Source of the DNA: Oceanicoccus sagamiensis | GTDB lineage: Bacteria; Pseudomonadota; Gammaproteobacteria; Pseudomonadales; Dasaniaceae | Direction of reading: 5' to 3' | DNA: 64,000 nt | NCBI RefSeq assembly: GCF_002117105.1 | Contig: NZ_CP019343.1 | Location: 1,426,001-1,490,000, forward strand | In this document: in pieces, positions 4,340-53,777 of the stretch | Layout: each line of letters begins with the position of its first letter | Position numbering within the stretch: position 1 is the first letter of the stretch | Translations under genes and position numbers: made by a program | Notes under the pieces: model-generated | Told to the model about the DNA's origin: nothing | The model's input: only the letters and a program-made list of their open reading frames with translations | Databases searched by the model: none

Positions 4340-4368
4340 TAGAACCCTTTAGGGGGCGTTTACCCCCC
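4340..4368 (-). promoter_or_regulatory. Island-type promoter upstream of sigma 1
   Basis: On the minus strand: GGGGGGTAAAC (4368-4358), 11 bp, then GGTTCTA (4346-4340). It is a divergent member of the shared motif, with the T-run partly replaced. The G-run and following C-run form an inverted repeat. Confidence 0.45.
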
Positions 4369-4469
4369 TATGTATTTTGATTATTTTTTGCTGGCGGTGT
4401 CAGCCCTCTTTTCGGCCCTCTTTTGGGGTTAATCGGGTGACTGAGCTTTTATGCTGTTTTTTATATTGG

Positions 4470-5642
4470 TTATTGCTTCATTAGGTGTTTGTATTGAATA
4501 TCATTAACCCTGCTCACACCCAATAATCTCATCGTGCATGCCAGTTCCTGCTGCAATATATACAGAGACTTTTCAACCCCGGCCTGGCCACCGGCCGCCA
4601 AACCATAGAGGTAGGGCCGGCCAATGGCGCAAGCATTGGCCCCCAAAGCCAAGGCTTTGACAATATGGGACCCTCGCCGAATACCGCCATCAACGATTAA
4701 CTCCAGCTGATCACCCACCGCCTGTCGTATCGGCGCAATACAATCTACCGGGGCGGGCGTCCCGTCCAATTGCCGGCCACCATGGTTGGATATCATCACG
4801 GCTGTAGCCCCCACCTGAACCGCTCGCTTGGCATCTTCCGGGGACTGAATGCCCTTGATCACAAAAGGGCCTCCCCACTGCTGCACCAACCAGGCAACAT
4901 CGTCCCAGGTAACGGTGCGATCAAATTGGCTGTTAACGTAGTCAATTAAACCCATTGCCCCTTTGCCCAGCGCATCTTCTCGATGAGCCACATTGACCAG
5001 TTTTATATCGGGCTGACGCAGCAGGTGCCATAACCAGGAGAAGCAACCGGCATAGCTCAAGGCCTGTTTAAAACGGATTTTGGGCGGCATAGTCATGCCG
5101 TTTACCCGGTCTCTTTCACGGTTGCCAGCTACGGCGGTATCAACGGTTAAACACAGGGCCTGGTAATGGCTGGCCTGACAGCGCTGCACAAATTCCCGGG
5201 TCAATTCACGGTCTTTCAGCATATAAATCTGAAACATTTTGGGGCCGGCGGTGGCAGCAGCCACATCTTCCAGACGAGTGGTGGCCATGGTAGATAAGCT
5301 ATAGAGGGTGCCAAAACGATCGGCGGCACGGCATACACCCAGTTCTTTATGGTGGTGAAACAGGCGGGACATGCCCGTCGGTGATAAAAAAAACGGCAGC
5401 TGCAGTGTGGTGCCCAGCAGGTCCGTTTTTATATCCAGTCTATCGACATTGTTGAGCTGGCTGGGTAATAAGGCGTAATCATCAAAGGCTTTGGTATTGC
5501 GACGTAAACTCCACTCATCGTCGGCGCCTCCCTCCAGATAATCAAAGATGGGGGCTGGGAGTTTAGCCCTGGCTCTATCCCTGAGCCCGGCAATATTGTG
5601 CAGGCCCTGAAGATGATTAGTGCGGCGAAAGCAGTTGTTCAA
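4470..5642 (-). CDS. FMN-dependent 2-hydroxyacid dehydrogenase/oxidase (lactate/glycolate/mandelate type)
   Basis: This 390-residue protein matches the usual length of the family, which oxidises 2-hydroxyacids to 2-oxoacids. It has the N-terminal FMN-family motif (FDYLEGGADDEW, residues 33-44) and the catalytic block SNHGGRQLDG, with His287 as base and Arg290 binding the carboxylate. It ends with the flavin-binding segments VDGGIRRG and AIGRPYLYGL. Its start lies 26 bp inside the end of the PQQ dehydrogenase gene, so the two are surely one operon. The inferred role is oxidation of a hydroxyacid produced by, or alongside, the quinoprotein. The sequence does not define the exact substrate. Confidence 0.9.
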   Translation of the reverse strand: MNNCFRRTNHLQGLHNIAGLRDRARAKLPAPIFDYLEGGADDEWSLRRNTKAFDDYALLPSQLNNVDRLDIKTDLLGTTLQLPFFLSPTGMSRLFHHHKELGVCRAADRFGTLYSLSTMATTRLEDVAAATAGPKMFQIYMLKDRELTREFVQRCQASHYQALCLTVDTAVAGNRERDRVNGMTMPPKIRFKQALSYAGCFSWLWHLLRQPDIKLVNVAHREDALGKGAMGLIDYVNSQFDRTVTWDDVAWLVQQWGGPFVIKGIQSPEDAKRAVQVGATAVMISNHGGRQLDGTPAPVDCIAPIRQAVGDQLELIVDGGIRRGSHIVKALALGANACAIGRPYLYGLAAGGQAGVEKSLYILQQELACTMRLLGVSRVNDIQYKHLMKQ

Positions 5643-7812
5643 GTGTTGCCCCCTGCAGCAGTTTTTGCTGCTCGGTTATCAAGTAGGCCTGAATATTGCG
5701 CACATCGGTGGCGCTCAGGACATCATTAAACGCGGCCATACCACCGGCACTGAATAGCCCCTCCAGCACAATGTTTTCAAACAGGGCATGTATAGCTGGC
5801 TGCAGGGTATAGAGGTTGGGATAGGCGGAGCGCACCTGGCCATTGGCCCCGTGACAGGCGACACAGTACTGCCCGAATAATGCCTGGCCCTGTTGAATAT
5901 CGGCCTGCTCAAAGCCCGGCCATTTTTCCGGCAGGGGGGGTATCTCTAGTGGCGTTACCGGCGGTGGCAGGGAGACTGAACCGCCATCCAATTTAAACAC
6001 CAGCAGGCGCCCCTGGTTCTGGTAGTGGTAGGCCGCGGCTCCTTCGGGAAAGGCCCGGGACATTGCTCCACCATAGCCAGCCATTACTGCAATATATTGC
6101 TCACCTTGAATAGCAAAGCTCATGGGGGCAGCCATAATGCCAGTACCAATGGTGATGGTTTTCAGGATTGCCCCGCTATTGGCTTCATAAAAACGCAGCT
6201 CACCGGTGGCGGTACCCTGTATAACCAAGCCCCCGGCGGTAGCAAGGACACCGCCGTTCATTCCCCCTTTTAACGGCTGCTGCCAAACCAGCTTTTGGTT
6301 AACAGGGTCCCAGGCTTTTAGGTATTCCTGCACTTTAATCCCCCCCTCTACCAGCTGGTGGAATGGCTCGGGCACCGGCGGCCAATAAGGCAGGTACTGT
6401 ATAGAGCCGGTATTAAATCCCGAGGGGTTAAACTGGTATTGCGGGCTATTGATATACACACCCGGGTTGTCGATGGCGGGGATATAGACCAAACCGGTAT
6501 CCGGGCTCATCGCCATAGGCATCCAGTTATGGCCACCGGGTGAGCCGGGAAAAACCACTTTCGGCTTATGTTGGTAGTTTCCCTGACCCGTTAATACCGG
6601 GCGACCTGTTGCCTTATCAATATGGCTGGCCCAGTTGACGCGCACATAGGGCTCGGCAGAGAGCAGCTCGCCGGTGGCTCGATCCAGCATATAGAAGAAG
6701 CCATTTTTGGGGGCCTGCATTAATACTTGCCGCAGCTGCCCATCGATCTCGACCTCGGCCAGCACCATATGCTGGGTTGCGGTGTAATCCCAGATTTCTC
6801 CCGGTGTGGTTTGGTAATGCCACACTAAGCGACCGGTATCTGGGTTAATCGCCAGAATGGAGGCTAAAAAGAGGTTATCACCGCCACCGGGGCTTCGGTA
6901 CCAGATGGGGTAAGGTGAGGCATTGCCGGTCCCCACATACAGCAGGTTTAAGGTTGGGTCGTAGGCCATATGGCCCCATACCGTACCCCCGCCCCCACTT
7001 TGCCAGCTGGAGTCCGCTGACCAGGTCTTGGCTGCCATGGCCATTTCAGGGTGTTCTATACCCTTTGCTGGATCACCCGGCACAGTGTAAAAACGCCAAG
7101 CCAGTTCACCGCTATGGACGTCGTAGGCACTGATATACCCCCTGACACCCCGCTCTCCCCCGGAGTTTCCAATAATCACTTTGTCTCCGGCAATCCAGGG
7201 GGCACTGGTTATACTGTAGTGCCGGTCCCGGTTTACAAAGGTATCCACTGTCCAGATTTCTTTTCCAGTATCCGCGGACAGTGCTACCAGGTAGCCATCC
7301 AGTGTCCCCACAAACACCTGCCGTTGCCAAAGTGCCACGCCGCGGTTAACCACACCACAGCAGATACGCCTGGCCCAGCTGCCGTCAACCGGGGGGTCGT
7401 AGCGCCAGTGTTCTTTGCCAGTTGCGGCGTCCAGCGCATAGACCGTGCCCCAGGGGCCTGAGGTGTACATAAGCCCGTCCACAACCAACGGGGTTGCCTC
7501 AAGGCCATGCTGGACCCGGCCCCGATAATTAACCGGGTATTCCCAGGCCAGCCCGAGGCGCTGAACCGTTTGGCGGTTGATCTGCTTTAATGGCGAGAAG
7601 TGTTGCTGCCTGAAGGTACGCCCTGAGGTCAGCCACTGACCGGGTTCACGCCCTGCCTGGCGCAGACGGTTAGCGTCAACCAAGGGCGTTGCCGAAGCAG
7701 AATGGGGGCTGGCGTTGCTGATGTCCGCAGTAGGCGCCTTTTCATTGCAGGCAACCAAAGGCAGCAACAATGCCACGCAAAAACTCAACTGCCATCGCCT
7801 TAGCACTGACAT
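5617..7812 (-). CDS. PQQ-dependent quinohemoprotein alcohol dehydrogenase, lipoprotein
   Basis: This 731-residue periplasmic dehydrogenase carries PQQ and a fused cytochrome c domain. It begins with a lipoprotein signal whose lipobox ends at Cys22 (PLVAC), so it is probably membrane-anchored. The propeller has the vicinal disulphide Cys151-Cys152 (ICCGVVNRG) typical of quinoprotein alcohol dehydrogenases, plus repeated WxxD/TG blade motifs. The C-terminal domain has the haem site CVACH (650-654) and a candidate axial Met in GGMAAF. Substrates of this family range from simple alcohols to lupanine-like compounds, and none can be chosen here. It sits 21 bp downstream of a TonB receptor gene and overlaps the 2-hydroxyacid oxidoreductase, so uptake and periplasmic oxidation look coupled. 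Confidence 0.9.
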   Translation of the reverse strand: MSVLRRWQLSFCVALLLPLVACNEKAPTADISNASPHSASATPLVDANRLRQAGREPGQWLTSGRTFRQQHFSPLKQINRQTVQRLGLAWEYPVNYRGRVQHGLEATPLVVDGLMYTSGPWGTVYALDAATGKEHWRYDPPVDGSWARRICCGVVNRGVALWQRQVFVGTLDGYLVALSADTGKEIWTVDTFVNRDRHYSITSAPWIAGDKVIIGNSGGERGVRGYISAYDVHSGELAWRFYTVPGDPAKGIEHPEMAMAAKTWSADSSWQSGGGGTVWGHMAYDPTLNLLYVGTGNASPYPIWYRSPGGGDNLFLASILAINPDTGRLVWHYQTTPGEIWDYTATQHMVLAEVEIDGQLRQVLMQAPKNGFFYMLDRATGELLSAEPYVRVNWASHIDKATGRPVLTGQGNYQHKPKVVFPGSPGGHNWMPMAMSPDTGLVYIPAIDNPGVYINSPQYQFNPSGFNTGSIQYLPYWPPVPEPFHQLVEGGIKVQEYLKAWDPVNQKLVWQQPLKGGMNGGVLATAGGLVIQGTATGELRFYEANSGAILKTITIGTGIMAAPMSFAIQGEQYIAVMAGYGGAMSRAFPEGAAAYHYQNQGRLLVFKLDGGSVSLPPPVTPLEIPPLPEKWPGFEQADIQQGQALFGQYCVACHGANGQVRSAYPNLYTLQPAIHALFENIVLEGLFSAGGMAAFNDVLSATDVRNIQAYLITEQQKLLQGATLEQLLSPH

Positions 7813-7833
7813 CCTGTTCCCTCAAATAACGCA

Positions 7834-10241: not shown

Positions 10242-10271
10242 ACTTTCTATACTTTCTATATTACTTTCTAT
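10242..10271. repeat. Three direct copies of ACTTTCTAT
   Basis: Copies are at 10242-10250, 10251-10259 and 10263-10271. They lie between the end of the AraC-type gene and the receptor gene, the last one overlapping the araC stop. AraC proteins bind direct repeats, so these may be operator half-sites, but the role is unproven. Confidence 0.45.
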
Positions 10272-11356
10272 AACAACTGACGACTTTCTTTAGGGGTGGT
10301 ACCAAAATACCGCTTAAAGGCCTTACCAAAACTGCTCGAACCGGTGTAACCAACCTGTTCAGACACTTCGCTCACCGCTGCACCTTCACGCAATAACAGA
10401 CGGGCGTTAGTCATTCGCTGGCTAAGCAAGTACTCGTTCACCGTCACACCGTAAAGGGCTTTAAAACCCTCTGTGAGCTTGCGCCGGTTAAAACCTACCC
10501 ACCGGCTAAGGTCGTCCAATGTAAATGATTCGGCATAGTCGCTGTGCAAACGCGCCTTTAGCGCTTCCAGTTTTTGGATATCCCGCTGATTTAAACGCAC
10601 ACTGCCAACGCTAGACAGGTTATCGACATACAGAGAACGAATCGCCTGGGTTAATAACTCAAGGCTGCGGCTTTCTGTATGGAAGTGATAAAACGGGTTA
10701 TCGCTTGTCAGGTCGAGAATTTCGCGGGCCAAACGATAAATATCAGCGGTTAAAGGCACCACCAGCAGATGGTCTTGAAGTTTATGGGCGTCCGCATTGG
10801 TGGCTAATAACTGGATATAGTGCCGGTGTGCCGGCGCCACAAACCGTGCAAGCTGCTCTGGCTTAAACACCAGGTGGACGCTGGAGTGATTTCCAAGGTC
10901 AACCATATCGTAGGTGTAGCGCAGGCCCTGACCAAAATTCAGAAAAGTACATTGAGCGGCGCAATCAAAGGGCAAGGACTCATTAAAAGACTCCTTGGGT
11001 TTACCCTGCATAAAAACCCGCAGTGAAATCCATTGCTCCGAATAATAACTGCCCCGCATCAATGCCGGCCTGACATCCCTAAACAGCTGGAGAATAAAAC
11101 CGTTTGAGAGAAAATGAAATTCTTCCTCGTGGTCAGGCAGGCAGAAACGCACCGCAGAGGAAATATCGCCCTGCGCGACTAAACGTCGAAGATCGTAAAA
11201 AAATTCACTGGGGTCAACCGCGCCCTGGCTTTCATAGCCAAATAGATGGTGGCATTCAGGGGCGTTGGGCACCAGTCGCGTGACAGCGCCCTGTTGTGAG
11301 GCTGTAAAGTTATTTAAGGTAAAGGATGTGCGAGCTTGCTTATATATTTTCCCCAT
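10268..11356 (-). CDS. AraC-family transcriptional regulator
   Basis: The regulator is about 362 residues, with an effector-binding N-domain and a C-terminal pair of helix-turn-helix motifs (around FTLDDLSRWVGFNRRKLTEG and EVSEQVGYTGSSSFGKAFKR, closing FGTTPKESRQLL). A GTG start at 11371 is possible. The ATG at 11356 is preferred because GTG 11371 abuts the -10 element of the promoter at 11364-11392. That placement would make the mRNA leaderless or nearly so. It is inferred to control the adjacent receptor-PQQ dehydrogenase-hydroxyacid dehydrogenase operon. Confidence 0.9.
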   Translation of the reverse strand: MGKIYKQARTSFTLNNFTASQQGAVTRLVPNAPECHHLFGYESQGAVDPSEFFYDLRRLVAQGDISSAVRFCLPDHEEEFHFLSNGFILQLFRDVRPALMRGSYYSEQWISLRVFMQGKPKESFNESLPFDCAAQCTFLNFGQGLRYTYDMVDLGNHSSVHLVFKPEQLARFVAPAHRHYIQLLATNADAHKLQDHLLVVPLTADIYRLAREILDLTSDNPFYHFHTESRSLELLTQAIRSLYVDNLSSVGSVRLNQRDIQKLEALKARLHSDYAESFTLDDLSRWVGFNRRKLTEGFKALYGVTVNEYLLSQRMTNARLLLREGAAVSEVSEQVGYTGSSSFGKAFKRYFGTTPKESRQLL

Positions 11357-11363
11357 AAGGGTA

Positions 11364-11392
11364 TAAGACACTTAAGTGGGTAAAAACCCCAC
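11364..11392 (-). promoter_or_regulatory. Island-type promoter upstream of araC
   Basis: On the minus strand: GTGGGGTTTTT (11392-11382), 11 bp, TGTCTTA (11370-11364). It is a near-perfect copy of the shared motif. A start 6-8 nt downstream would fall on or next to the ATG at 11356. Confidence 0.65.
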
Positions 11393-11430
11393 CTATACAT
11401 AGCTGAAAGATAACAGGCTGAAGCAGGCTG

Positions 11431-20114: not shown

Positions 20115-20143
20115 TAAGACACATTGGGAAACAAAAACCCCAC
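20115..20143 (-). promoter_or_regulatory. Island-type promoter of the hydrolase operon
   Basis: On the minus strand: GTGGGGTTTTT (20143-20133), 11 bp, TGTCTTA (20121-20115). Both boxes are identical to those upstream of araC, and the spacing is the same. Confidence 0.7.
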
Positions 20144-20149
20144 CTCAGT

Positions 20150-23254: not shown

Positions 23255-23494
23255 TACTCTTAATCCTTTTATATATTTGATATCAAATGTTATTGAGTGT
23301 TTGAGAATGCTACTGTCAGGTTTTGCAAAAGGACGGTCGTACTTACAGAACACGAGAGTAAACCTTGCACCTTCACTACCGAAGCCCGATGGTTTTTTGG
23401 GTTTCGAGCTTAATGCCAAACCATAACCAGCATTGGATAGTGCACTAATTACTTGCAGAACCCTGTATTAAGCTGTTTTGACAAACCCGCTATC

Positions 23495-23523
23495 TAAGAG
23501 TCTTTTCAGCGGTAAACCCCTAC
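23495..23523 (-). promoter_or_regulatory. Island-type promoter of S9-A
   Basis: On the minus strand: GTAGGGGTTTA (23523-23513), 11 bp, ACTCTTA (23501-23495). It is a good match to the shared motif, giving a leader of about 235 nt before the S9-A start. Confidence 0.55.
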
Positions 23524-23548
23524 CCCGGTTTGTGAAAAAAGTCGTAAC

Positions 23549-28309: not shown

Positions 28310-28338
28310 TACAGAGAAACTAGCGGGGAAAACCTCAG
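28310..28338 (-). promoter_or_regulatory. Weak island-type promoter upstream of sigma 2
   Basis: On the minus strand: CTGAGGTTTTC (28338-28328), 11 bp, CTCTGTA (28316-28310). It is the most divergent member of the set, supported mainly by position and spacing. Confidence 0.35.
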
Positions 28339-34613: not shown

Positions 34614-34671
34614 AAAGACTCTTAGACGCTCGCAGAAAATGGCTTTCAAAAAAAACCGTGCGTATAAGCAC

Positions 34672-34700
34672 TAAGATACCCAAGGGGGGAAAAACCCCAC
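34672..34700 (-). promoter_or_regulatory. Island-type promoter of the metallohydrolase
   Basis: On the minus strand: GTGGGGTTTTT (34700-34690), 11 bp, TATCTTA (34678-34672). One of the best copies of the motif. Confidence 0.7.
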
Positions 34701-34746
34701 CCCTGAGTTAAAATAATAGCAGACGAGTAAAGATAAAGGACATGCC

Positions 34747-37378: not shown

Positions 37379-40024
37379 CTAGAAATCATAAACAAATTTA
37401 ACACCGTAAGACTGGCGGCGACGTTGAGTACTTATTCCCGTTATTTCAGAGTTGAATGTAACATCAGCTTCATCCAGTAAATTATTACCAAAGAGTTCAA
37501 TATTTATCATGCCGACCTGAGCACCCACATACACATTAAGAACCGTCAATATTTCGCTCTCTGCAACTTCAGGAATAAAACCCAGATTTCGAAAAACCGA
37601 AGTACTGGGCCCTTGAGTATGGTAATCAGCCCGAATATAGCCAGAAGTCGAAGCCGACCAGTGAAATTGATAGTCCGCCGTGAATGAATAGCTGTACTCC
37701 GCAACTAAATTTAGCGGATCACCAACGACTTTATCGGTCACACCAGAGTTTAATGAGGTGAATTCTGCATCGGTAATATTGCCATTAAACCCCACCGTAA
37801 GATCAGGATTCATTGCCCAGCGTACGTCCCATTCTATGCCCTGAATTTCAGCTGTCCCTGAATTCTGTAATAGCACCAGGGTTAAATCGTCCGGATCAAA
37901 AGCATCAGATTGGAAATCATCATACTCACTGAAGTAGATCGCAAACTCTGTTGTTAACCTATCATCCAACCACGCAGCTTTTGTACCCAATTCATAAGTC
38001 AGGAGTTCCTCAGGGCCATAAGATACGCTGCCGCTAGATTCAGGGGGATTGAAACCACCACTACGAAAACCCTCTGCAATACTGAAGTAAACATTCATAT
38101 CGTCGGAAGCTGCATATGACAGATGGATTTTTGAACTCACCTTTTCAAAATCATCTTCACCTGAGAAACCATTTTCCGCGGTGAATATACTACGATCGTC
38201 TTTAAAGACCCGTGTGCCAAACCCTAGCGTCCACAGATTATTAAAAGCGTAGGTGATATCGCCGAAAATAGCTGTCGCATCTGAGCTGCTGACCGTAGGC
38301 AAGGTTGGGTTACCGCCTGCAACATCTATATCATCCACACCGAAAGCTCTGAAATCAAAAAAATCCTCAGCGGTTTGATCAGATGCTTCTGTGTCTGCAT
38401 GAAAAACACCCAGTGTCCATTCAAGCGCCCCGTCAGAAGTACTACTTAAACGAATTTCCTGTGAAGTAATTTCCGATTCCGCCAACACTCCGTGACTCTC
38501 TATGGCAATCATATCTTCAGAGGGCAAAGTTAAAAATATGCTTGAGTTGTCATTCAAGCGGGAAATATCTACCTTCGAAGCGGTCGCTATTAATACCGCA
38601 TAACCCAAATCATAAGTAGCTGTAATATTGTAAATATCATGTTCATCATCAAAGCCAAAAGGCGTGTTTCGATCAACACTTGACATCAATACACTGTCTG
38701 AAGACTCAAACTCACCACTGGGTAAAAACTGTGTTAAATTAGGGCCACCAGCATTAATGCGATGGCGAACCACCCCCGCCAATACCTCCAAATTATCCGT
38801 GGCCTGCCACAGGCCTTTAATGCGAATATTAGACCCCTCATTACTATTAATATTTTCTCGAATAATATGGCGATCGTCATCAATCTGATCTATCCAGCCG
38901 GCCTTGTTTTCATAAGTTGCTGAAATACGAAAAGCCAAGGTATCATCAATAACAGGGATATTAAGCACCCCCTGTAACTCCTCACTCCAGTCGCCACCTT
39001 TGGTATCATAGGTTGTAAAACCGAACTGACCACCAGAGCTATTAAGTTCTGGTTTTTTGGTAATAAGACGGATGGTTCCACCCACTGAACCCTGACCAAA
39101 TAAAGTCCCTTGTGGGCCGCGCAATACTTCCACACGCTCTAAGTCATGAGCACGAACATCAAGGAACAGCCGAGCAACAGAAAGCGGGGTCTCGTCAAGA
39201 TACATACCGACTAATGGACTACTACCAGCGGTATTGCCAATTCCTCTTAGCACATAAGTCGTATCCCCCGGACCAGTGGAAGATTCCGATAAATTTGGTA
39301 TCAAATAAGATAAATCACTAACCGTCTGAATACCTCGAGAATCTATAGTTTCTCCAGACAGTGCAACAATGCTAATAGGTACATCCGCTAAATCCTGTTC
39401 TCTCTTGGTCGCTGTCACCACGATCTCTTCTAGCACCCAAGCTTTTTCCTCCTGCTTATCCGCCATATCCTGAGCCAATACCGAACTCCCCCCTGCCCCC
39501 ATCAAAAACCCTACCGTTGCTGCCAATAATTGTTTCTTACTGCCTGAGTAATTAATCCCCATTTTTCGATCCCCATCTATCAAATTATGCTCGGTTACGA
39601 TCAGATGGTCGCGGCTGCTGAATGTGTAATTCAGTGTGGTGCCAGCGAGTAGCAGTTCAACGGCCCGGGGGGTTTGGTAACGCCCCTGCAGCGCGTTGGC
39701 CTGGTGCTTGCTGATTGCATCGTAGTCAAAGGCGACGGTAATGTCGGCTTGAGCTGCGAGTGCGGTTAGCGCGCCATCTGCACTTTGCTGCGGGATATTA
39801 AAAACGGTGCCGTGGTCACTGGCGGTGGCCAGTGAGGTTAGCAGGATAAGAATCAATACAACGTACTTTTTTTGTTGTTTGGGTGTGGCTTTTTTCAGGC
39901 TTAACCGTTGTTGTAAAAAGTGTTTTACTCTTATCACGCTCGTTTTTACGCAGCGGGCGGTAACGGCGGTGGCGTTGTTATTGGCCGTTGTCGTTATCGC
40001 GTATTGATAAGATCGATAAGTCAT
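37379..40024 (-). CDS. STN-domain TonB-dependent receptor, ECF module 3
   Basis: This 881-residue receptor has an unusually long N-terminal leader; the hydrophobic signal core is only at about 53-68 (KYVVLILILLTSLATA). The STN domain follows (about 73-145), then an internal signal-peptide-like segment from Met155, TonB box EEIVVTATKR, the plug and a barrel ending FVYDF. A later true start is possible, since the first 45 residues are atypical. The 225 bp around the internal signal peptide and TonB box are almost identical to receptor 4, while the rest diverges. It lies 55 bp after fecR3. Confidence 0.93.
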   Translation of the reverse strand: MTYRSYQYAITTTANNNATAVTARCVKTSVIRVKHFLQQRLSLKKATPKQQKKYVVLILILLTSLATASDHGTVFNIPQQSADGALTALAAQADITVAFDYDAISKHQANALQGRYQTPRAVELLLAGTTLNYTFSSRDHLIVTEHNLIDGDRKMGINYSGSKKQLLAATVGFLMGAGGSSVLAQDMADKQEEKAWVLEEIVVTATKREQDLADVPISIVALSGETIDSRGIQTVSDLSYLIPNLSESSTGPGDTTYVLRGIGNTAGSSPLVGMYLDETPLSVARLFLDVRAHDLERVEVLRGPQGTLFGQGSVGGTIRLITKKPELNSSGGQFGFTTYDTKGGDWSEELQGVLNIPVIDDTLAFRISATYENKAGWIDQIDDDRHIIRENINSNEGSNIRIKGLWQATDNLEVLAGVVRHRINAGGPNLTQFLPSGEFESSDSVLMSSVDRNTPFGFDDEHDIYNITATYDLGYAVLIATASKVDISRLNDNSSIFLTLPSEDMIAIESHGVLAESEITSQEIRLSSTSDGALEWTLGVFHADTEASDQTAEDFFDFRAFGVDDIDVAGGNPTLPTVSSSDATAIFGDITYAFNNLWTLGFGTRVFKDDRSIFTAENGFSGEDDFEKVSSKIHLSYAASDDMNVYFSIAEGFRSGGFNPPESSGSVSYGPEELLTYELGTKAAWLDDRLTTEFAIYFSEYDDFQSDAFDPDDLTLVLLQNSGTAEIQGIEWDVRWAMNPDLTVGFNGNITDAEFTSLNSGVTDKVVGDPLNLVAEYSYSFTADYQFHWSASTSGYIRADYHTQGPSTSVFRNLGFIPEVAESEILTVLNVYVGAQVGMINIELFGNNLLDEADVTFNSEITGISTQRRRQSYGVKFVYDF
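39560..39574 (-). promoter_or_regulatory. Internal ribosome-binding site and ATG inside receptor 3
   Basis: GGGGA (39574-39570), 7 nt, then in-frame ATG (39562-39560, residue 155), followed by GINYSGSKKQLLAATV and a VLAQ cleavage site. The peptide start differs from the other receptors, but the spacing is the same. Confidence 0.5.
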
Positions 40025-40079
40025 GAAAAACCCTTCAAACTTTTTTTCATTTTTTCATTTTTTCTTTTTATTGATTTTT

Positions 40080-41820: not shown

Positions 41821-41849
41821 TAGGATCGATCAGGGAGGGAAAACCCCAC
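41821..41849 (-). promoter_or_regulatory. Island-type promoter upstream of sigma 3
   Basis: On the minus strand: GTGGGGTTTTC (41849-41839), 11 bp, GATCCTA (41827-41821). Confidence 0.55.
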
Positions 41850-45586: not shown

Positions 45587-45631
45587 CTATTTATCCATAG
45601 CGGGATATTGCCGTTTTAAAGACGCTATAAG

Positions 45632-45659
45632 TAAGATGCATTTATGGCGAAAACCCCCC
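45632..45659 (-). promoter_or_regulatory. Island-type promoter of the GPH transporter
   Basis: On the minus strand: GGGGGGTTTTC (45659-45649), 10 bp, CATCTTA (45638-45632). The spacing is one base shorter than usual. Confidence 0.55.
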
Positions 45660-45990
45660 ATCGATGCGAAAAAATAAGTGCTAATGACTAGAAAATCGGC
45701 AGGCAATTATATTATGTTGGCTCGACTGACACCGCGGCTCGATAGAAATAGCATCCTTCGACAAAGACCCCATTAATGCCCCCCACAAAGAGATCAACAT
45801 TGAAATAAGATGAAGTCATTATCTGAGATAAGCTGATCGCTGACTGCCATGCCCAAAATCATAAAAAAGCAATCGGTAAGCACTGCCATCATTTGTGACG
45901 ACACTATCCCAAGTGCAGGTTTTCACCACTGAGTCTTCCCCAGCATTAATATTTCTTATTGAGATACCTACAAAAAATTTTATTTAGGGC

Positions 45991-46019
45991 TGGGGGTTTT
46001 CTTCGCTGAACGTATCTTA
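45991..46019 (+). promoter_or_regulatory. Island-type promoter of S9-C
   Basis: TGGGGGTTTTC (45991-46001), 11 bp, TATCTTA (46013-46019). A plus-strand copy, which shows the motif tracks gene direction. Confidence 0.65.
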
Positions 46020-46025
46020 GTAAGA

Positions 46026-46208
46026 GCAAATACGCCAAGCGAAGCTGGCGCTACCCGGTAGGTGAAAGTCCTGGCCAAGTCAATTTTGACTTATATTACA
46101 ATTACATAAGTTGATTGCAACAATGCTTGACGGAGAACCTTACGCGCTGTGCGGAGGGGCCCGTTAAGCCCCAAACAAGTAATTAATTTTTATATTAGGA
46201 GGCGATTA
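46026..46208 (+). other. Long, structured-looking 5' leader of S9-C
   Basis: This leader of about 180 nt has CGCCAAGCGAAGCTGGCG (a short inverted repeat), a GGTGAAAGTCC stretch, the palindrome AAGTCAATTTTGACTT (46077-46092) and a GGGGC/GCCCC hairpin (46156-46172). A strong AGGAGG then precedes the ATG. It could be a regulatory RNA or intron remnant, but no known class was recognised. Confidence 0.3.
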
Positions 46209-48557
46209 ATGAACAGCGATCAGATAGTGATATCCGCTACTAGAAAAGAATGTGCTGGAGAAGAGACAGATTTACCTGCTGATATGGGGGATCGCTATGA
46301 TAGAGCACAATTTATGTGGCAGTTAATGATGGGCCAGAAAAAAGCTAGCTGGAACACTACTGTCTACCCCCATTGGATTGGAAACAGTGATAACTTTTGG
46401 TACAAACGAGAAACAAAACACGGGATAGAGTATCGGCTAGTTAATGCAATAAACAAAAGCAATCATCTTGCATTTCAGCACAAAATACTTGCAAGCACAT
46501 TGTCGAAAGCTTCCGGGGAAACGGTGGACTCTAGTAACCTACCCCTAGAAAATGAGCAGATAAGCCTCAACCCTTTGAAAGTCAATTTTGTGGCTTACGA
46601 TCAATACTGGCAGTACGACGAAGCAAGCAGAAGCTGTGTGCCACTAGCGCGATATCATGGTGATTGGATAGTATCCCCCGATGGCAGCAAAGCCGTTTTC
46701 TCCCGTGACTACAATTTATGGTTGGTAAACTTAATAAACGGACAGGAGTGCGCTTTAACGAATGATGGTTCACGCCATTATGCCTATGCCACTACAGCAA
46801 GCACCTATGGCCGGCAGGAATTTCTTACACTGGAAACACTCTGGTCACCAGATAGCAGACAACTGTTCACCCATGTGAGGGATACCCGGCAAGTAAAAGC
46901 TGGCCCTCCTCTTATACAATATGTCCCCACTGATGGAACCTTCAGGCCGAAAGATATTGGCGATAATCGTCATGTTGGTTTTTCTCAGGACAAGCATGCA
47001 GAAACCTATCAGTTTCTGGCCATTGATGTGACAAGTGGCCAGCTAACAAAGGCTAACCTTAGACCTAGCCTGACACTCTGGCCACCCTATGTTGGTTTTT
47101 TCACCGCCCAGAACGGTTGGTGGGGCCAAGACAGCCGGCGAGCCTACTTTACTGATATAAGCCATGATGATCATACTGGTAGGTTAATCGAGTTCGATAC
47201 CCACACCGGATTAACAAAGGTGTTAATTGAAGACACTAATGAAGGTTACTTTAGTTTTGTGCCTTACTCTCACCTTCGCCCTCTTCTTACGGTATTACCC
47301 GAAACGGATGAGTTGATCTGGTACTCAGTACGCAACGGCTGGCCTCATCTATATCTTTATGATCTGAACAGCGGTAACTTGAAGCATCAGATAACCGAAG
47401 GCGACTGGTCAGTACGCAATATCATCCATGTAGATCTATCACGCCGGGAGCTGCTGATCCAAACGGCTGAGCGAATAAAGGGTAAGAACCCTTATTACTG
47501 TGATATCTGCCGCGTCAATATCGACAATGGGGAAATAACGACTCTGCTGTCGACTGACCATGAATACGTGGTATTGGATGGGCGTAGCCGGGTGTCTTCG
47601 TTTGATGCGAAGTCCAGAGGCGCCTCTTGCACGGGTAATTATATAGTTACAACACGCTCAAGAGCTGACGAGTTACCGGTTAGTTTGTTACTGGACCGGC
47701 AGGGCGAGCCCCTAATGGAACTAGAGCAAGCCACTCTGTCAGGAATGCCAAAAGATTGGAGCTTACCAGAACCTGTGATGCTAAAAGGTGCCGATGACGA
47801 AACAGATATCTACGCTGTTATCTTTCGCCCTTCGAATTTTTCAGCCGACAATTCTTACCCAGTTGTAGATATCACCTATCCCGGCCTGACCACACCAGCT
47901 GGCTCATTTAGTAATGCTACCGGTGGTGGGGTAGGTATGTATATTGGAGCTAGTATAGCAGAGCTTGGGTTTATTGCCGTCTCTATGGAAACACGTGGGG
48001 GTGTGCTTAGAAACGAAACTTTTATGACCTATCAAGACCCCAAAATCCCGATTGGAAATTTCGATTATTACAATCATCTGGATCAAATTGCGGGACTAAA
48101 ACAGATGGCGACACGCTATCCTTATATGGACCTTAATAGAGTGGGGGTTTGCACTATCGGTACTGTACCCAGCGCCCTAACAGGCCTAATGGCCTACCCA
48201 GACTTCTTCAAGGTTGGCGTTAGTGTTAATGCTTTATCAGATATGCGGCTGTTTGGTATGTTCGCGGGATTCTCTGGAAGGAGAAACCTAAAGGGCAATA
48301 TTGAAGAACTGTTTGATGGCTTGCAAGGCAAACTATTGATTATGCATGGCATGCTGGACGATGTTGTACCCGTAGCTGTCCCTTTACGCCTCGCTGAAAC
48401 ACTTTTCAAGGCAGGCAAACCCATCGATATGCTGCTATTGCCCAATGAAGGCCACACCATGTCAGCCCAAGCCATGACCTATGCCTGGGATTATATGGTC
48501 AAACACTTAATGGGGGTTACGCCACCACGAGAGCGTAAGGATTCATATCAAAGATGA
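46209..48557 (+). CDS. S9-family (DPP IV-like) protein, paralogue C, without nucleophile serine
   Basis: The protein is 782 residues from the ATG at 46209, chosen because AGGAGG lies 7 nt upstream; the longer frame from 46149 lacks a site. It has a propeller domain followed by an alpha/beta-hydrolase domain. The expected nucleophile elbow reads TIGTVPS, with Gly where Ser should be. The Asp (HGMLDD) and His (PNEGHTM) are intact. It is otherwise complete and well kept, so it may be a binding or regulatory pseudoenzyme rather than a dying gene. It is the only S9 copy on the plus strand that is full length, with its own promoter. Confidence 0.87.
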   Translation: MNSDQIVISATRKECAGEETDLPADMGDRYDRAQFMWQLMMGQKKASWNTTVYPHWIGNSDNFWYKRETKHGIEYRLVNAINKSNHLAFQHKILASTLSKASGETVDSSNLPLENEQISLNPLKVNFVAYDQYWQYDEASRSCVPLARYHGDWIVSPDGSKAVFSRDYNLWLVNLINGQECALTNDGSRHYAYATTASTYGRQEFLTLETLWSPDSRQLFTHVRDTRQVKAGPPLIQYVPTDGTFRPKDIGDNRHVGFSQDKHAETYQFLAIDVTSGQLTKANLRPSLTLWPPYVGFFTAQNGWWGQDSRRAYFTDISHDDHTGRLIEFDTHTGLTKVLIEDTNEGYFSFVPYSHLRPLLTVLPETDELIWYSVRNGWPHLYLYDLNSGNLKHQITEGDWSVRNIIHVDLSRRELLIQTAERIKGKNPYYCDICRVNIDNGEITTLLSTDHEYVVLDGRSRVSSFDAKSRGASCTGNYIVTTRSRADELPVSLLLDRQGEPLMELEQATLSGMPKDWSLPEPVMLKGADDETDIYAVIFRPSNFSADNSYPVVDITYPGLTTPAGSFSNATGGGVGMYIGASIAELGFIAVSMETRGGVLRNETFMTYQDPKIPIGNFDYYNHLDQIAGLKQMATRYPYMDLNRVGVCTIGTVPSALTGLMAYPDFFKVGVSVNALSDMRLFGMFAGFSGRRNLKGNIEELFDGLQGKLLIMHGMLDDVVPVAVPLRLAETLFKAGKPIDMLLLPNEGHTMSAQAMTYAWDYMVKHLMGVTPPRERKDSYQR

Positions 48558-49050: not shown

Positions 49051-49052
49051 AA

Positions 49053-49078: not shown

Positions 49079-49110
49079 AAGTTTGACAAAAGAATTATGT
49101 GCATTTTCAA

Positions 49111-51669
49111 TTAAAAATCGTAATCGAATTTGACACCATATGAACGACGCCGATACTGTGTTTCTCTACCAACAAATGCCCAATTTGATAGACCATCATC
49201 CTCATCCAAAAGGTTATTGCCAAATAATTCAATTGAGAAAGATGTCCAATTCACACCAACATGCCCATTAAGAATAGTTAATACCTTGGACTCACCCACC
49301 TCTGGAATAATACCCGCATTATGCACAGTAACAGTGTTCGGCCCCTGAGTATTGTAATCGACGCGAACAAAGCCACGTGCTGAATCAAACCAGTCATACT
49401 GATAATCGGCAGCCAAGGTATAACTGTATTCGGGAATATTGTCTAATGAACTACCAACCCTTTTTTGTTGAACAGTTCCCTGAGGTATTGAAGTAAACTC
49501 CCCATCTGTAAAATTACCGTTTAACATAAAAGTGATATTCTCATTCATCGCCCATCGAAGATCCCATTCAAAACCTTTTATTTCAGCTTCACCGGAATTT
49601 TTAAATGCAGTCAACGACGTTGAAGGATCCAGGACAGCTCCCTGAAAATTAGTAAACTCACTATAATAAAAAGCAACTTCTGTAATAAACGTGTTATTCA
49701 GCCAAGAAGCCTTTGTACCCAACTCATAAGTCAACAGTTCCTCTGGCTCATAAGAGGGGGGGGCACCTGCCGCAGAGTCACTTGGTGGATTAAACCCACC
49801 ACTACGAAAGCCTTCAGATACACTAAAATGAATATTGGCATTATCTGTAGCTGCGAAGGAAAGGTAAACTTTGGAGCTTACATTATCAAACTCCTCTTCT
49901 AGCATAAGGCCATCATCCATAGTCAGTATACTTCGGTCATCTCTAAATACTCTAGAACCCATTCCTACCGTCCATTTGTCATTAATACCATAAGACACAT
50001 CGCCAAAAAGCGCTATGGTGTCCGAACTGTTGATTTCAGGTAATTTTGGTCCTCCTTCGAGAACACCAAGTCCAAATATGCTAAAATCCCGGAATACATT
50101 GGCATGCTGGTTCTTAAGCTCCGAATCGGCAAGAAATACACCAACGGTCCATTCCAATGTAGTAGCTTCATCAGCTGCACTGCTTAAACGGATTTCCTGA
50201 GAGACAATTTCAGTTTCATCTACCACACCTATACGCGCTACCTCCAGCACTCCCCCGTCAGGCACCGTCAAAAATATTGTTTCATTATCTGACAGATTAT
50301 AGGTATCTACCTTTGATGCTATAGCAGTCAAAACAGAATATCCAAAGTCATAAGTGGCGGTGATATTGAAAATATCGTGTTCATCATCATACCCAAAGGG
50401 CATGTTCGGATCAGCAGCAGATCGCATAACCCCGTCTTCTGCTGTAAAGCGCCCATCTGCGGAATGTAGGACAAAATTAGGACCGCCTGATTTATTACGG
50501 TGTCGAACTACCATGGCAGAAACTCTCATTTTATCAGTTACCTGCCATAAGCCTTTGATACGAGTATTTGAACCCTCACTGCTATTAATATCTTCTGCGA
50601 GAATAACATCAGATTTGTCTATTTGATCTATCCAACCTGACTTATTTTCATAACTAGTTGCTATACGAAATGCTAATGTATCATCAATAACAGGAATATT
50701 AAGCACCCCTGTTACCTCCTCACTCCAATCGCCTTTTTTTGTGTTATATGTTGATAAGCCGAAATGACCACTTATATTATTAAATTCAGGATTTTTAGTA
50801 ATAAAGCGAATCGTACCACCTACAGAGCCTTGGCCAAATAATGTACCTTGAGGTCCTCGTAGTACTTCCACACGCTCTAGGTCAATCGTCCGTATATCAG
50901 GTTGAGCACCTGTCACAGAAACAGGGACTTCATCAAAATAAGTACCAACCAGTGGTGCAACACCATTGCCATTACCAACTCCTCTCATGTAATAAAATCT
51001 ATTGCCTCCTCCAGCTGAAGTAACTGATAGATTAGGCACAGCTAAGGATAGGTCACTAACCGTCTGCATACCTCGAGAATCTATAGTTTCTCCAGACAGT
51101 GCAACAATGCTGATAGGTACATCCGCTAAATCCTGTTCTCTCTTGGTCGCTGTCACCAGGATCTCTTCCAGCACCCAAGCTTTTTCCTCCTGCTTATCCG
51201 CCATATCCTGAGCCAATACCGAACTCCCCCCTGCCCCCATCAAAAACCCTACCGTTGCTGCTAATAATTTTTTCTTACTGTTCATTGCATTATCCCCTCG
51301 TTCGAAGTCACTACTTTTTTGGCGGGGCGTAATTAAAATAACCCCTTCGCTAGTGAGCTCTCCGGAGAGATCTGTGCCGTCCAGAATAATCGCTAAAGCC
51401 TCGTGCAAGGTGTAGCGACCTACCAGTGTAATGGTGGCCCTGGTTTCTATCTGGTCGTAAGGAAATAACAATTGCTTGCTGCTGACACTGGCCAGTGAAC
51501 GTAACGACTGTTCTACGGTTTGCGATCGAATGCTCAGGGTGTAACGCCGGGCATTTTTTTCGGCACCGTGGCCTTGGTCATTGTCGGCATACAGCGGGGT
51601 GACGGTTAGCGGCAACAGTACAACAAATACGATCATCCACCAGCGGGATGCTTTGCCTTTCATAGTCAC
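49111..51669 (-). CDS. STN-domain TonB-dependent receptor, ECF module 4
   Basis: This is an 852-residue signalling receptor. It has a signal peptide about 1-28 (ending PLYA), an STN domain about 42-115, then an internal signal-peptide-like segment from Met129. The TonB box is EEILVTATKR, the plug contains VEVLRGPQGTLFGQGS, and the barrel ends FDYDF. It has a promoter-like element of its own at 51721-51751, between it and fecR4, so receptor expression may be boosted separately. A 225-bp tract is shared with receptor 3. Confidence 0.94.
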   Translation of the reverse strand: MTMKGKASRWWMIVFVVLLPLTVTPLYADNDQGHGAEKNARRYTLSIRSQTVEQSLRSLASVSSKQLLFPYDQIETRATITLVGRYTLHEALAIILDGTDLSGELTSEGVILITPRQKSSDFERGDNAMNSKKKLLAATVGFLMGAGGSSVLAQDMADKQEEKAWVLEEILVTATKREQDLADVPISIVALSGETIDSRGMQTVSDLSLAVPNLSVTSAGGGNRFYYMRGVGNGNGVAPLVGTYFDEVPVSVTGAQPDIRTIDLERVEVLRGPQGTLFGQGSVGGTIRFITKNPEFNNISGHFGLSTYNTKKGDWSEEVTGVLNIPVIDDTLAFRIATSYENKSGWIDQIDKSDVILAEDINSSEGSNTRIKGLWQVTDKMRVSAMVVRHRNKSGGPNFVLHSADGRFTAEDGVMRSAADPNMPFGYDDEHDIFNITATYDFGYSVLTAIASKVDTYNLSDNETIFLTVPDGGVLEVARIGVVDETEIVSQEIRLSSAADEATTLEWTVGVFLADSELKNQHANVFRDFSIFGLGVLEGGPKLPEINSSDTIALFGDVSYGINDKWTVGMGSRVFRDDRSILTMDDGLMLEEEFDNVSSKVYLSFAATDNANIHFSVSEGFRSGGFNPPSDSAAGAPPSYEPEELLTYELGTKASWLNNTFITEVAFYYSEFTNFQGAVLDPSTSLTAFKNSGEAEIKGFEWDLRWAMNENITFMLNGNFTDGEFTSIPQGTVQQKRVGSSLDNIPEYSYTLAADYQYDWFDSARGFVRVDYNTQGPNTVTVHNAGIIPEVGESKVLTILNGHVGVNWTSFSIELFGNNLLDEDDGLSNWAFVGRETQYRRRSYGVKFDYDF
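51283..51297 (-). promoter_or_regulatory. Internal ribosome-binding site and ATG inside receptor 4
   Basis: GGGGA (51297-51293), 7 nt, then in-frame ATG (51285-51283, residue 129), opening MNSKKKLLAATVGFLMG and a VLAQ cleavage site. Confidence 0.5.
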
Positions 51670-51720
51670 TCCTTGCCTGTGCAGAAGATGGTTACTGCCT
51701 CTCCATATAACTCACATCTA

Positions 51721-51751
51721 TAAAGAGACAACGCGTTGAAAAACTCCCCAC
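51721..51751 (-). promoter_or_regulatory. Island-type promoter variant upstream of receptor 4
   Basis: On the minus strand: GTGGGGAGTTTTT (51751-51739), then TGTCTCTTTA (51730-51721). It has two extra bases in the -35 part, so it is a less certain member. It would serve the receptor alone. Confidence 0.4.
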
Positions 51752-51758
51752 TGGCCGG

Positions 51759-52877
51759 TTAATTATTTTTTTCCAGGCGGCGGGAAGTGGCTTCCCGGTA
51801 GGAGATATAAATCAGTTTTGGGGTTACATAGTCCGCCTGTAAATTAAAACCCTGTTCCAGCGCGGTAATAATAGCTTGAGTATCGCCTACCTGAAATTGC
51901 CCGCCAATACGCAGCTGCCCGGCCTGGGCTGATTTCAGGATAATGCGGGTATCGGTATAGCGGCTGATTTCTACCAGTACCTGTTGCAGGGGCTCACCAC
52001 TAAACACCAGCAGGCCCTGCTGCCAGGATAAACGGCGGCGCAGTTCGGCGGCGGCGACGGTTTCTATTTGCTGGACGGCGGCTTGATTCAGCGTGGCGGC
52101 TTCGCCAGCTTTAAGGCGCTGGGCCTTGCCTGCGGGTGTTGCTGGCGCGGCGGGTGCGGCGCTGGCCTCGGCGGTTATGGGTGCTATCAGTTCGGGTTCG
52201 ATTTCTACAACACCTTCAGCCACCAGCACATCAATATCACCCCCGGCCGGCGCCAGTGCCACGGAGAAGGCGGTGCCAATAGCGCGCACGCGGCTGGTGG
52301 CTACATACACATCAAAGGGCCGGGCCGGGTCTTTGACAACCTCGAAGTGGGCTTCGCCCTGATGCAAATAAATGGCCCGGGCCTGCTCGCTATAGCTAAT
52401 ATCCACCCGGCTTTGGGTATTCAATTGCAGCACACTGCCATCGGGCAGGCTAACGGTTTTTTGTTCGCCCACGGCGGTGGTATAGCTGTTGGCGGGGCCA
52501 AATAAGCCGCTGCTTTGCCAGCCGAGGATAAGCACAATACAGACTGTGGCAGCCAGCGCCCAGTAGGCGGACAAGGGTCGCCACACCATGGCGGCCGCAG
52601 AGCCATGGCCGCCGGGCATGGTGCTGCCTGCATGGGCGCGGCGCTGCTGGTTTAGTACAGGCAGGTGCGCCAATATATTGAGGTCACCCCAGGCTTTGGC
52701 CACATCTTCAAAGGCGGTGATATGTGCCGGGCTTTGTTTGACCCAGTGCCGAAAGTCCTGCAAGTCTTTTTCACTGGGGTCGCCGCCATCGAGTTTGGCC
52801 AGCCAGGCCGAGGCCTGTGCCTGCACGCTGGCGCGCTCCTCCAGATTGATTACGTTGTTGTCCATGCTGTCAGTCAT
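51759..52877 (-). CDS. FecR-type anti-sigma factor, module 4
   Basis: The protein is 372 residues from the ATG at 52877 (MTDSMDNN). This start gives the same 8 bp overlap with the sigma stop as in module 1; the upstream ATG at 52958 does not. It has a DUF4880-like N-domain (ASAWLAKLDGGDPSEKDLQD), a membrane segment (YWALAATVCIVLILGW) and a FecR domain (AHFEVVKDPARPFDVYVA). An Ala/Pro-rich linker (EASAAPAAPATPAGKA) and an intact C-terminal STN-like domain (GGQFQVGDTQAIITALEQGF) follow. Confidence 0.92.
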   Translation of the reverse strand: MTDSMDNNVINLEERASVQAQASAWLAKLDGGDPSEKDLQDFRHWVKQSPAHITAFEDVAKAWGDLNILAHLPVLNQQRRAHAGSTMPGGHGSAAAMVWRPLSAYWALAATVCIVLILGWQSSGLFGPANSYTTAVGEQKTVSLPDGSVLQLNTQSRVDISYSEQARAIYLHQGEAHFEVVKDPARPFDVYVATSRVRAIGTAFSVALAPAGGDIDVLVAEGVVEIEPELIAPITAEASAAPAAPATPAGKAQRLKAGEAATLNQAAVQQIETVAAAELRRRLSWQQGLLVFSGEPLQQVLVEISRYTDTRIILKSAQAGQLRIGGQFQVGDTQAIITALEQGFNLQADYVTPKLIYISYREATSRRLEKNN

Positions 52878-53493
52878 TGTGGTTTCCCGGATGCTGTGTG
52901 CTGGTGCTGTGTGCTGGCTGGCTATCGCGGTGATCAGGCGCCTGCTGACGATCGGCAAGTTCCTGATTGTTTATATAATCGGTATAGCGATCAACCCCTT
53001 TGGCAATATGTTTTTCTACGGTTTTAACGGAGATATCCAGCTCCCGCGCAATCTCTTTATGGGATAGCGCATGAACTTTGCGCAGCAAAAATACTCGCCG
53101 GCACTGCTCTGGCAATTCGGCCACGGCGGCGCAGCACAGTTGCAGTTTTTGCTGGGCTATCAGGTCTTCTTCTACGGAGGCACCGCCACCCAGGATTGAG
53201 TCATCGACGGCCTCTTCCAGATAGTCGGTAAGCTGGCGGCTGTTTTTGCCCAGCTCTCTAAGGGCTATATTGCGCGCCACCCGAAACAGATAGGCACGGG
53301 GTGATTTGATCGGCTCGCTGCTCTCGGCCCTAAAGGCCCGCAAAAAGGCCTCCTGCGCCAGATCATCAATATCTTCCGGGCGATTGGAAAAACGGTATAA
53401 AAACCGTTTTAGCGGTATTTCGCAGGCGAGAAAAACATCCAGTAATCTGGCATTACGCTTTTTACGCTGCGCTGTGCCCGGCGGTTTTGACAT
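52870..53493 (-). CDS. ECF sigma factor (FecI-like), module 4
   Basis: This ECF sigma factor has 207 residues. Region 2 is FLYRFSNRPEDIDDLAQEAF and region 4 is ELPEQCRRVFLLRKVHALSH followed by KEIARELDISVKTVEKHIAK. The basic N-terminus (AQRKKRNAR) and His-rich tail are peculiar to this copy. It is closest to sigma 1 and sigma 2 in the visible motifs. It is coupled to fecR4. Confidence 0.92.
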   Translation of the reverse strand: MSKPPGTAQRKKRNARLLDVFLACEIPLKRFLYRFSNRPEDIDDLAQEAFLRAFRAESSEPIKSPRAYLFRVARNIALRELGKNSRQLTDYLEEAVDDSILGGGASVEEDLIAQQKLQLCCAAVAELPEQCRRVFLLRKVHALSHKEIARELDISVKTVEKHIAKGVDRYTDYINNQELADRQQAPDHRDSQPAHSTSTQHPGNHND

Positions 53494-53543
53494 AGTGCTC
53501 TCTTGGCTTTCCTGTGGAAAGAAGTTAAGGCTTTGTAAGTATA

Positions 53544-53572
53544 GTAGAGACCGCCGGAGCTAAAATCCCCCA
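53544..53572 (-). promoter_or_regulatory. Island-type promoter upstream of sigma 4
   Basis: On the minus strand: TGGGGGATTTT (53572-53562), 11 bp, TCTCTAC (53550-53544). The G-run is part of a CCCCCA/TGGGGG inverted repeat. Confidence 0.45.
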
Positions 53573-53748
53573 TTGTGGGGGTTGTTTTTGAGGTTTTGCT
53601 GGTGGGATGGCGATGCAGATGGGAACTTTAGGGCCATAAGTGTCTTATTAAAGGAAGATTACTGATCCTACTCCTACCTACCACTCTTCTTTCCCGCCTG
53701 TTGAACTTAAGGGTGAAACATCGCCAAAAAACTATTTTTTTATGGGAG

Positions 53749-53777
53749 GTGGGGTTTTTCCGCCCAAATGTGTCATA
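53749..53777 (+). promoter_or_regulatory. Island-type promoter of the NSS symporter operon
   Basis: GTGGGGTTTTT (53749-53759), 11 bp, TGTCATA (53771-53777). The -35 part is identical to the best minus-strand copies. The leader is about 190 nt. Confidence 0.65.

Follow-up and report, generated by a model that had tools for sequence, protein, structure and literature searches.

A clade-restricted promoter-like motif in Oceanicoccus sagamiensis and a divergent sigma70-family protein as its candidate reader

The 64,000-nucleotide stretch of the Oceanicoccus sagamiensis genome analysed here (contig NZ_CP019343.1, positions 1,426,001 to 1,490,000; hereafter the window) holds four FecI-FecR-receptor sets (Pfam was run on one of each), S9 peptidase genes, an AraC-type regulator, an aldehyde dehydrogenase/hydrolase operon, a CehA-like open reading frame (ORF), a GPH transporter and an operon of a sodium:neurotransmitter symporter (NSS). 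An earlier note on this DNA had listed twelve copies of a two-part motif upstream of these genes and had proposed a promoter read by one or more of the local FecI-type sigma factors, which would make the island a single regulon. The listed sequences were found where the note had placed them, and the element is, as claimed, promoter-like, oriented with the genes and locally enriched. In our analysis the motif resembles a private promoter system of recent origin and does not appear to be served by the iron-type sigma factors encoded beside it. Nothing on this motif was found in the open-access literature searched.

The genome to which the window belongs (G000; one contig, 4.47 Mb) was analysed together with other genomes (G001 to G009, G056 and further ones). 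With up to three mismatches allowed, the pattern of the earlier note matched seven times in the window (mean of 0.11 and maximum of 2 in 100 shuffles) and 51 times in the whole of G000 (reversed control: 16). A refined consensus, RGGTGGGGWWW-N10-AAGTGTCTTA with fixed spacing, was based on 46 distinct contexts in G000 and G002 and, at the same tolerance, gave 47 matches in G000 (46 unique) and none in the reversed control. To train a weight matrix, 53 of the 57 refined-pattern hits outside the window (42 from G000 and 15 from G002) were used. Those dropped were the duplicate at the contig end, one identical 31-mer and two weak hits (genome positions 1399357 and 4407332), each with three mismatches; the 13 hits of G006 were left out of the training. 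The weakest training site scored 18.9 bits and the best position in 40 dinucleotide shuffles 15.4 bits.

Six window positions scored between 20.8 and 42.1 bits using this matrix. The highest-ranking one (11364..11394, minus strand; 42.1 bits) precedes the AraC-type regulator (10268-11371) and matches the earlier pattern exactly, as do the copies before the aldehyde dehydrogenase/hydrolase operon (20115..20145, minus; 36.2 bits; first ORF 18556-20049, with Aldedh PF00171 downstream) and before the CehA-like ORF (34672..34702, minus; 30.1 bits; ORF 32502-34649), which is given no family by Pfam and owes its name to the earlier note. The copy before the NSS operon (53747..53777, plus; 35.5 bits; operon from 53976 on, SNF PF00209) has one mismatch to that pattern. 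All four share GTGGGGTTTTT-N11, which bears out the statement of the earlier note that the -35 part and the spacing are identical in them. A weaker copy at 23495..23525 (minus; 20.8 bits) lies before S9 peptidase A (20891-23419, Peptidase_S9) and falls outside the hits with up to three mismatches. The sixth position, a second copy before the NSS operon (53617..53647, plus; 23.7 bits; three mismatches), had not been listed previously. Five of the twelve listed sites were hereby recovered by the matrix, while the other seven, among them those of the four sigma genes and of receptor 4, were not, with scores ranging from +2.8 (S9-C) down to -26.5 (sigma 2).

The motif as a whole is non-palindromic and consists of an A-rich stretch approximately 13-18 bp upstream, a G-box RGGTGGGGWTTT at the place of a -35 element, a 17-bp spacer and the -10 element AAGTGTCTTA (hexamer GTCTTA). 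The distance in GTGGGG-17-GTCTTA is the usual distance between the boxes of sigma70 promoters, and the G-box, at about 12 bp, exceeds the length of a usual -35 hexamer. When GTGGGG and TGTCTTA were searched as exact strings separated by 14 to 20 bases, 38 matches were found in G000 (reversed control: 1), and the spacer measured exactly 16 bases in 36 of them. A G directly before GTGGGG and a G directly before TGTCTTA were present in 46/46 sites each, though the search had left both positions free, and the base preceding the first of these was A or G in 46/46. The halves seldom occur apart: among the 33 copies of RGGTGGGGWTTT in G000, 30 coincide with hits of the earlier or the refined pattern (control: 7) and three stand alone, and among the 39 copies of AAGTGTCTTA, 31 coincide (control: 2) and eight stand alone. 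In the motif-free genomes G001, G003 and G005 the totals were only 4, 4, and 5 for RGGTGGGGWTTT and 4, 2, and 5 for AAGTGTCTTA, respectively.

For the analysis of genomic positions 46 of the 47 G000 hits were used, the remaining one falling outside the regions retrieved. Two of the 47 are one and the same site, because the contig ends appear to be identical; in the 46 this duplicate is counted twice. The segments G000:C1:1-7321 and 4464759-4472079 appear to be the same (5,000/5,000 compared bases identical), and the genome record was probably not trimmed when it was closed. Hits do not fall inside genes as often as upstream of them, a check named in the earlier note: 42/46 sites are outside called ORFs and only 4/46 inside, though with this crude way of calling genes about 89% of the window counts as coding. 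The four ORF-internal sites either have the ORF start shortly upstream (genome positions 12838 and 2888850) or lie in a short ORF of 88 or 81 amino acids. The next called ORF is on the strand of the motif in 44/46 cases and starts within 250 bp in 36/46. Some sites lie very close to the gene: only 8 nt past the motif comes the first in-frame ATG of the araC ORF, and 7 nt past it the ATG of the asparaginase gene. Messages starting from such sites would be almost leaderless. Two boxes at a fixed distance, intergenic placement and orientation with genes are the marks of a promoter class read by one sigma factor. We infer that the motif serves as core promoter for a regulon that extends over the whole genome.

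The unique sites are spread over the genome, with 41/46 lying outside the window, which contradicts the view of the island as the regulon. The local enrichment is nevertheless real, since the window holds 5/46 sites (0.66 expected) and the surrounding 102 kb (1.399-1.501 Mb, bounds chosen post hoc) hold 16/46 (1.05 expected). Five sites flanking the window, at genome positions 1408207 and 1411682 (minus) and 1498407, 1500034, and 1500684 (plus), have longer shared flanks (52-88% over 60 bp upstream, with nine of the ten pairs listed) and look like promoter pieces duplicated on both sides.

Pfam was run for 30 proteins near G000 sites elsewhere in the genome (mostly the first ORF, for some the second) and for 10 window proteins, five of which directly follow a scoring site; no family was found for 9/40. 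The families following motif sites include, on the side of amino acids and peptides, asparaginase, an M17 aminopeptidase (917 bp off), NAD-glutamate dehydrogenase and an S9 peptidase; among transporters and enzymes, two sodium:neurotransmitter symporters, LysE and AzlC exporters, an MR_MLE enolase-superfamily enzyme and an aldehyde dehydrogenase; and further AraC and GntR regulators, a chemotaxis receptor, GNAT enzymes, a GspH-type pilin and a BRCT protein. Sites in G002 and G006 also lie upstream of serine dehydratase-like and hfq-like genes (named by eye). Amino-acid and peptide use is a theme among the targets, not a rule.

Four sites of G000 could be paired with orthologous sites of G002 or G006 (upstream of gdhB, an AraC-type regulator, a transpeptidase-domain protein and GntR). 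Identical positions amounted to 45/48 and 36/40 in the two boxes, to 13/36 in the spacer and to 74/160 and 89/160 in the ungapped flanks. The boxes are conserved and the spacer and flanks have diverged, a footprint that marks a functional element made of two boxes. Further G002 sites are without a counterpart among the G000 hits (compared by eye), and sites therefore come and go.

The taxonomic distribution of the motif is narrow. Across 115 genomes, G000 among them, exact matches to the pattern were found 36 times in G000, 11 times in G002, nine times in G006 and once in G056, the single match in the latter being without the other conserved motif positions; none was found in viral contigs. 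The refined pattern with up to three mismatches gave 47, 15, and 13 hits in G000, G002, and G006, respectively, and none in G001, G003, G005, G008, and G009. Among the genomes searched the motif is hence confined to three Oceanicoccus genomes, which form one clade (tree support 1.0). The RpoD proteins of genomes with and without the motif are 86-91% identical, and those within the clade 98% or more.

To find sigma factors with the same distribution, eight genomes were searched for sigma70 region 2, a family search outside of which sigma54-type factors lie. This yielded 12 sigma70-family proteins in G000 and seven each in G002 and G006, where, judged by length, sequence and neighbours (RpoE of G006 by length only), they correspond to RpoD, RpoS, RpoH, FliA, RpoE, an extracytoplasmic function (ECF) sigma factor with a ChrR-like protein as its neighbour, and one further protein some 470 amino acids long. 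No FecI-type sigma was found among the seven of G002 or the seven of G006 (assemblies 92% and 96% complete). RpoD and RpoS were rejected as readers on the grounds that their -10 and -35 helices are identical in motif-free relatives (aligned examples), RpoE because a near-identical protein with matching regions occurs in the motif-free G001, G003, and G005 (in G008 the stretch examined matched at 26% only and RpoE was not identified), and the ChrR-linked ECF sigma because a near-identical protein is present in the motif-free G003. RpoH is present in the motif-free G001, G005, G008, and G009, FliA is present in the motif-free G003, and the second ECF sigma of G000 (L035) was not found in G002 or G006. 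Among the surveyed proteins only the one of about 470 amino acids, hereafter sigma470, matches the distribution of the motif.

Sigma470 is a divergent sigma70-family protein of 467-470 amino acids encoded from G000:C1:3046861 onwards, 1.6 Mb from the window; the G000 protein shares 69-70% identity with its counterparts in G002 and G006. Its N-terminus was detected in 3/390 genomes of the order (G000, G002, and G006) and in 1/369 of the class (the own genome), so that it occurs in the same three genomes of one clade as the motif. Membership of the sigma70 family in general is clear from PF04542 (54.3 bits, cut-off 24) and PF04545 (42.0, cut-off 24.1), with region 3 below the Pfam cut-off (18.2 vs 25.3). 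Among the best 25 of 51 NCBIfam matches per protein, sigma470 passes only the sigma70-ECF superfamily cut-off. The first 222 residues have no Pfam family, and hhalign gave no alignment of this part to the RpoD or RpoS proteins of the same genomes (E 0.28 and 0.69). When 29 sigma proteins were placed in a tree, sigma470 stood alone on a long branch whose placement has a support of 0.16.

RpoS chains (group 2 sigma70) are the best PDB matches of sigma470 (residues about 226-460), the RpoS model is the best NCBIfam match of the G002 protein and the third of the G000 protein among the best 25 of 51 listed, and the region 4.2 helix is similar. However, sigma470 scores 150.6 and 166.6 bits, below the RpoS cut-off of 378.7, carries some 220 extra N-terminal residues, and has a rewritten region 2.3-2.4, with YNWIDAK or YNWVDAK in all three proteins in place of the TWWIRQ of RpoS and RpoD; the promoter proposed for it is without TATAAT, and all eight compared genomes hold a true RpoS besides. 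The TWWIRQ region is the helix by which sigma70 factors read the -10 box. MzaA, the sigma70-like protein of the MZA anti-phage system, ranks second for the G000 protein (154.6 bits) and fourth for that of G002 (155.0 bits) among the same best 25 of 51, but both are far under the cut-off of 800 and match in the common sigma core alone. ECF (group 4) sigma factors have only regions 2 and 4 and about 200 amino acids; the long N-terminal part and the weak region-3 match set sigma470 apart from them. It may be likened to the RpoQ/RpoX-type proteins of Vibrionaceae, which are extra RpoS-like sigma factors of a narrow lineage.

An origin of sigma470 from phages or plasmids was searched for and rejected, as none of the records screened (50,697 from phages and 72,556 from plasmids) gave a match covering 80% of the query; strict peptide patterns also found none in viral contigs. 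The gene has different neighbours in two of the species (L124:1362-2774 in G000 and L125:1015-2418 in G002), which suggests that it or its neighbours moved. In G002 a weak copy of the motif (three mismatches) lies two genes downstream of it.

With moderate confidence we favour sigma470, an orphan, as the protein that reads the motif as the core promoter of a clade-private, genome-wide regulon. RNA polymerase with sigma470 would recognise the G-box RGGTGGGGWTTT together with the -10 element AAGTGTCTTA and would start transcription approximately 7 nt past TTA. Its targets would respond as one group, in good part genes for the uptake and breakdown of amino acids and peptides, with some regulators added. 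The four FecI-type sigma factors of the window would probably act on a separate set, the promoters of their own genes and of their receptors. More tentatively, a duplicated sigma factor may have changed its -10 surface, gained an N-terminal domain and taken over 13-46 promoters per genome with a private GTGGGG-17-GTCTTA code, for which the other Oceanicoccus genomes and the relatives sampled gave no sign, as a young and nearly orthogonal system whose sites are still being gained and lost between species.

Several observations weigh against this assignment. Since the three genomes form one clade, the co-occurrence of motif and sigma470 amounts to a single event, and the distribution would suit any other DNA-binding protein specific to the clade equally well. 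The survey was limited to the sigma70 family, and with G002 and G006 being 92% and 96% complete absence from them is not absolute. In its region 4.2 helix (SRERVRQIE) sigma470 hardly differs from RpoS (TRERVRQIQ), which leaves unexplained a -35 box as far as GTGGGG from the usual TTGACA; the G-box is, in addition, longer than a usual -35 element. The targets are mixed, with no single clear pathway. Finally, no copy of the motif with up to three mismatches was present upstream of the sigma470 gene itself, and autoregulation was hence not seen.

The length of the G-box and the region 4.2 that has not been rewritten are accounted for if sigma470 reads only the -10 element AAGTGTCTTA and the G-box RGGTGGGGWTTT is read either by a separate clade-specific activator at the -35 position or by the N-terminal domain of sigma470, for which the approximately 220 residues without a Pfam family or an alignment to RpoD and RpoS would be available. 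We consider such a composite promoter unlikely: the halves keep one exact distance (36/38 exact hits) and seldom occur apart, for which one protein reading both is the simplest explanation, and no candidate activator was identified.

Somewhat more doubtful is that the whole 31-bp motif is the binding site of a clade-specific activator or repressor and that an ordinary sigma factor starts transcription nearby. Within one clade another specific regulator could co-occur with the motif just as sigma470 does, and none was searched for. The motif is, however, non-palindromic, its boxes are spaced as in sigma70 promoters and an A-tract precedes them. Hexamers resembling TATAAT are no commoner within about 60 bp of it than in shuffles (mean best match 4.41 vs 4.44 downstream and 4.41 vs 4.45 upstream). 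The repressor site that the earlier note had offered as an alternative, on account of short inverted repeats, is not favoured either, the C-run arm of these repeats falling into the spacer, where only 13/36 positions are conserved as compared with 45/48 and 36/40 in the boxes.

That one or more of the FecI-type ECF sigma factors of the window read the motif and make the island one regulon, as originally proposed, is very improbable. The FecI upstream regions do contain a G-run in a similar layout, the distance between the -35 and -10 elements of the motif also fits ECF promoters, four FecI/FecR/FecA-type sets are present, and the sites are enriched in the surrounding 102 kb. However, G002 and G006 carry the motif (15 and 13 hits) and no FecI was found in these two of the three motif genomes, for which reason the FecI-type sigma factors of the window were rejected as its general reader, unless FecI genes are hidden in the missing 8% and 4% of these assemblies. 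Moreover, the window contains each of the four FecR genes of G000, yet 41/46 sites lie outside, and the upstream regions of the sigma genes do not score by the matrix. An origin of the motif from a dispersed repeat or a transposon end, as the similar flanks of the five copies on both sides of the window might suggest, is almost certainly wrong and was rejected: grouping 47 sites (the 46 examined and S9-A) by their flanks gave 40 groups, the median flank identity was 0.27, and at orthologous genes the boxes are kept while the flanks diverge.

The sites before the FecI sigma and receptor genes look like a set separate from the motif. Candidate FecI-type promoters precede sigma 1 (3665-4246) at 4340..4368 (minus; matrix score -2.0), sigma 3 (41119-41658) at 41821..41849 (minus; -2.5), sigma 4 (52870-53493) at 53544..53572 (minus; -2.5), receptor 4 (49111-51669) at 51721..51751 (minus; -5.2) and receptor 3 (37379-40024) at 40008..40036 (minus), the last overlapping the annotated start. 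The site upstream of sigma 2 (27596-28261) at 28310..28338 (minus) scored -26.5, rank 2133, and is not a motif copy. The upstream region of each sigma gene shares a sequence with that of the receptor gene of its set: TTCTATA for sigma 1 and receptor 1 (significance not shown), ACCTGAGG for sigma 2 and receptor 2, GGGTTTTyC...ATCGATCyTAT for sigma 3 and receptor 3, and TGGGG-N16-GTCTCT for sigma 4 and receptor 4.

Sigma 1, 2, and 3 have their best shared segment with their own receptor (for sigma 3 a score of 11.8, the next being 11.4), while sigma 4 scores better with receptor 2, and the sum over cognate pairs ranks first of 24 assignments, narrowly (41.3 vs 41.0). The upstream regions of sigma 3 and receptor 3 share 24/32 identities, and the A-rich non-cognate pair of receptors 2 and 3 also reaches 24. 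A cognate pairing of sigma and receptor promoters is thus suggestive at most. If true, each FecI would drive its own gene and that of its receptor, unlike in E. coli, where, as described in PMC9249621, FecI drives fecA and fecIR is read by sigma70 and not autoregulated.

In the receptors themselves an internal Met follows an STN-like N-terminal part (window positions 2151, 25987, and 51285, minus, for receptors 1, 2, and 4, and near 39547 for receptor 3, whose STN is below the Pfam cut-off). By eye this Met opens an apparent second signal peptide, MNSKKxLLAATVGFLxGAGG...AQ, and GGGGA stands 7 nt before the internal ATG in three of the four. Such an internal start could give a second receptor product without the signalling domain.

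Two further listed sites are weak and uncertain copies of the motif. The one before S9-C (46149-48557) at 45989..46019 (plus) scored 2.8 and ranked ninth, shuffles yielding 3.3 sites with a score of at least 0 per window, and the one before the GPH transporter (44159-45586) at 45632..45662 (minus), which is one base short, scored 1.0. A similar GPH-type transporter gene lies outside the window after a 29-bp version of the site at genome position 1423177, with the same downstream sequence; the two genes are very similar and have copied promoter regions. Of the window positions at matrix ranks 7-21, 6/15 are intergenic (13% expected; P = 0.009, post hoc), as are 9/34 of those at ranks 7-40 (13% expected; P = 0.03), and some of the weak window copies may be decayed or different promoters and not pure noise. 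The overlapping or shortened S9 peptidase frames at 28489-30799 and 42987-44039 are probably broken paralogues beside intact ones.

The island can be re-read as four FecI systems and a part of a genome-wide regulon lying side by side. A sigma factor that acquires a new promoter code, with dozens of promoters changing, is usually reconstructed from ancient events. Here, close relatives with and without the system would permit a site-by-site comparison of how a promoter code arises. Because the relatives sampled did not show the code, sigma470 with its motif would also be a candidate orthogonal sigma/promoter pair. As read from the genomes compared, Oceanicoccus appears to hold a clade-private promoter code, as yet unproven, with one good candidate sigma factor.

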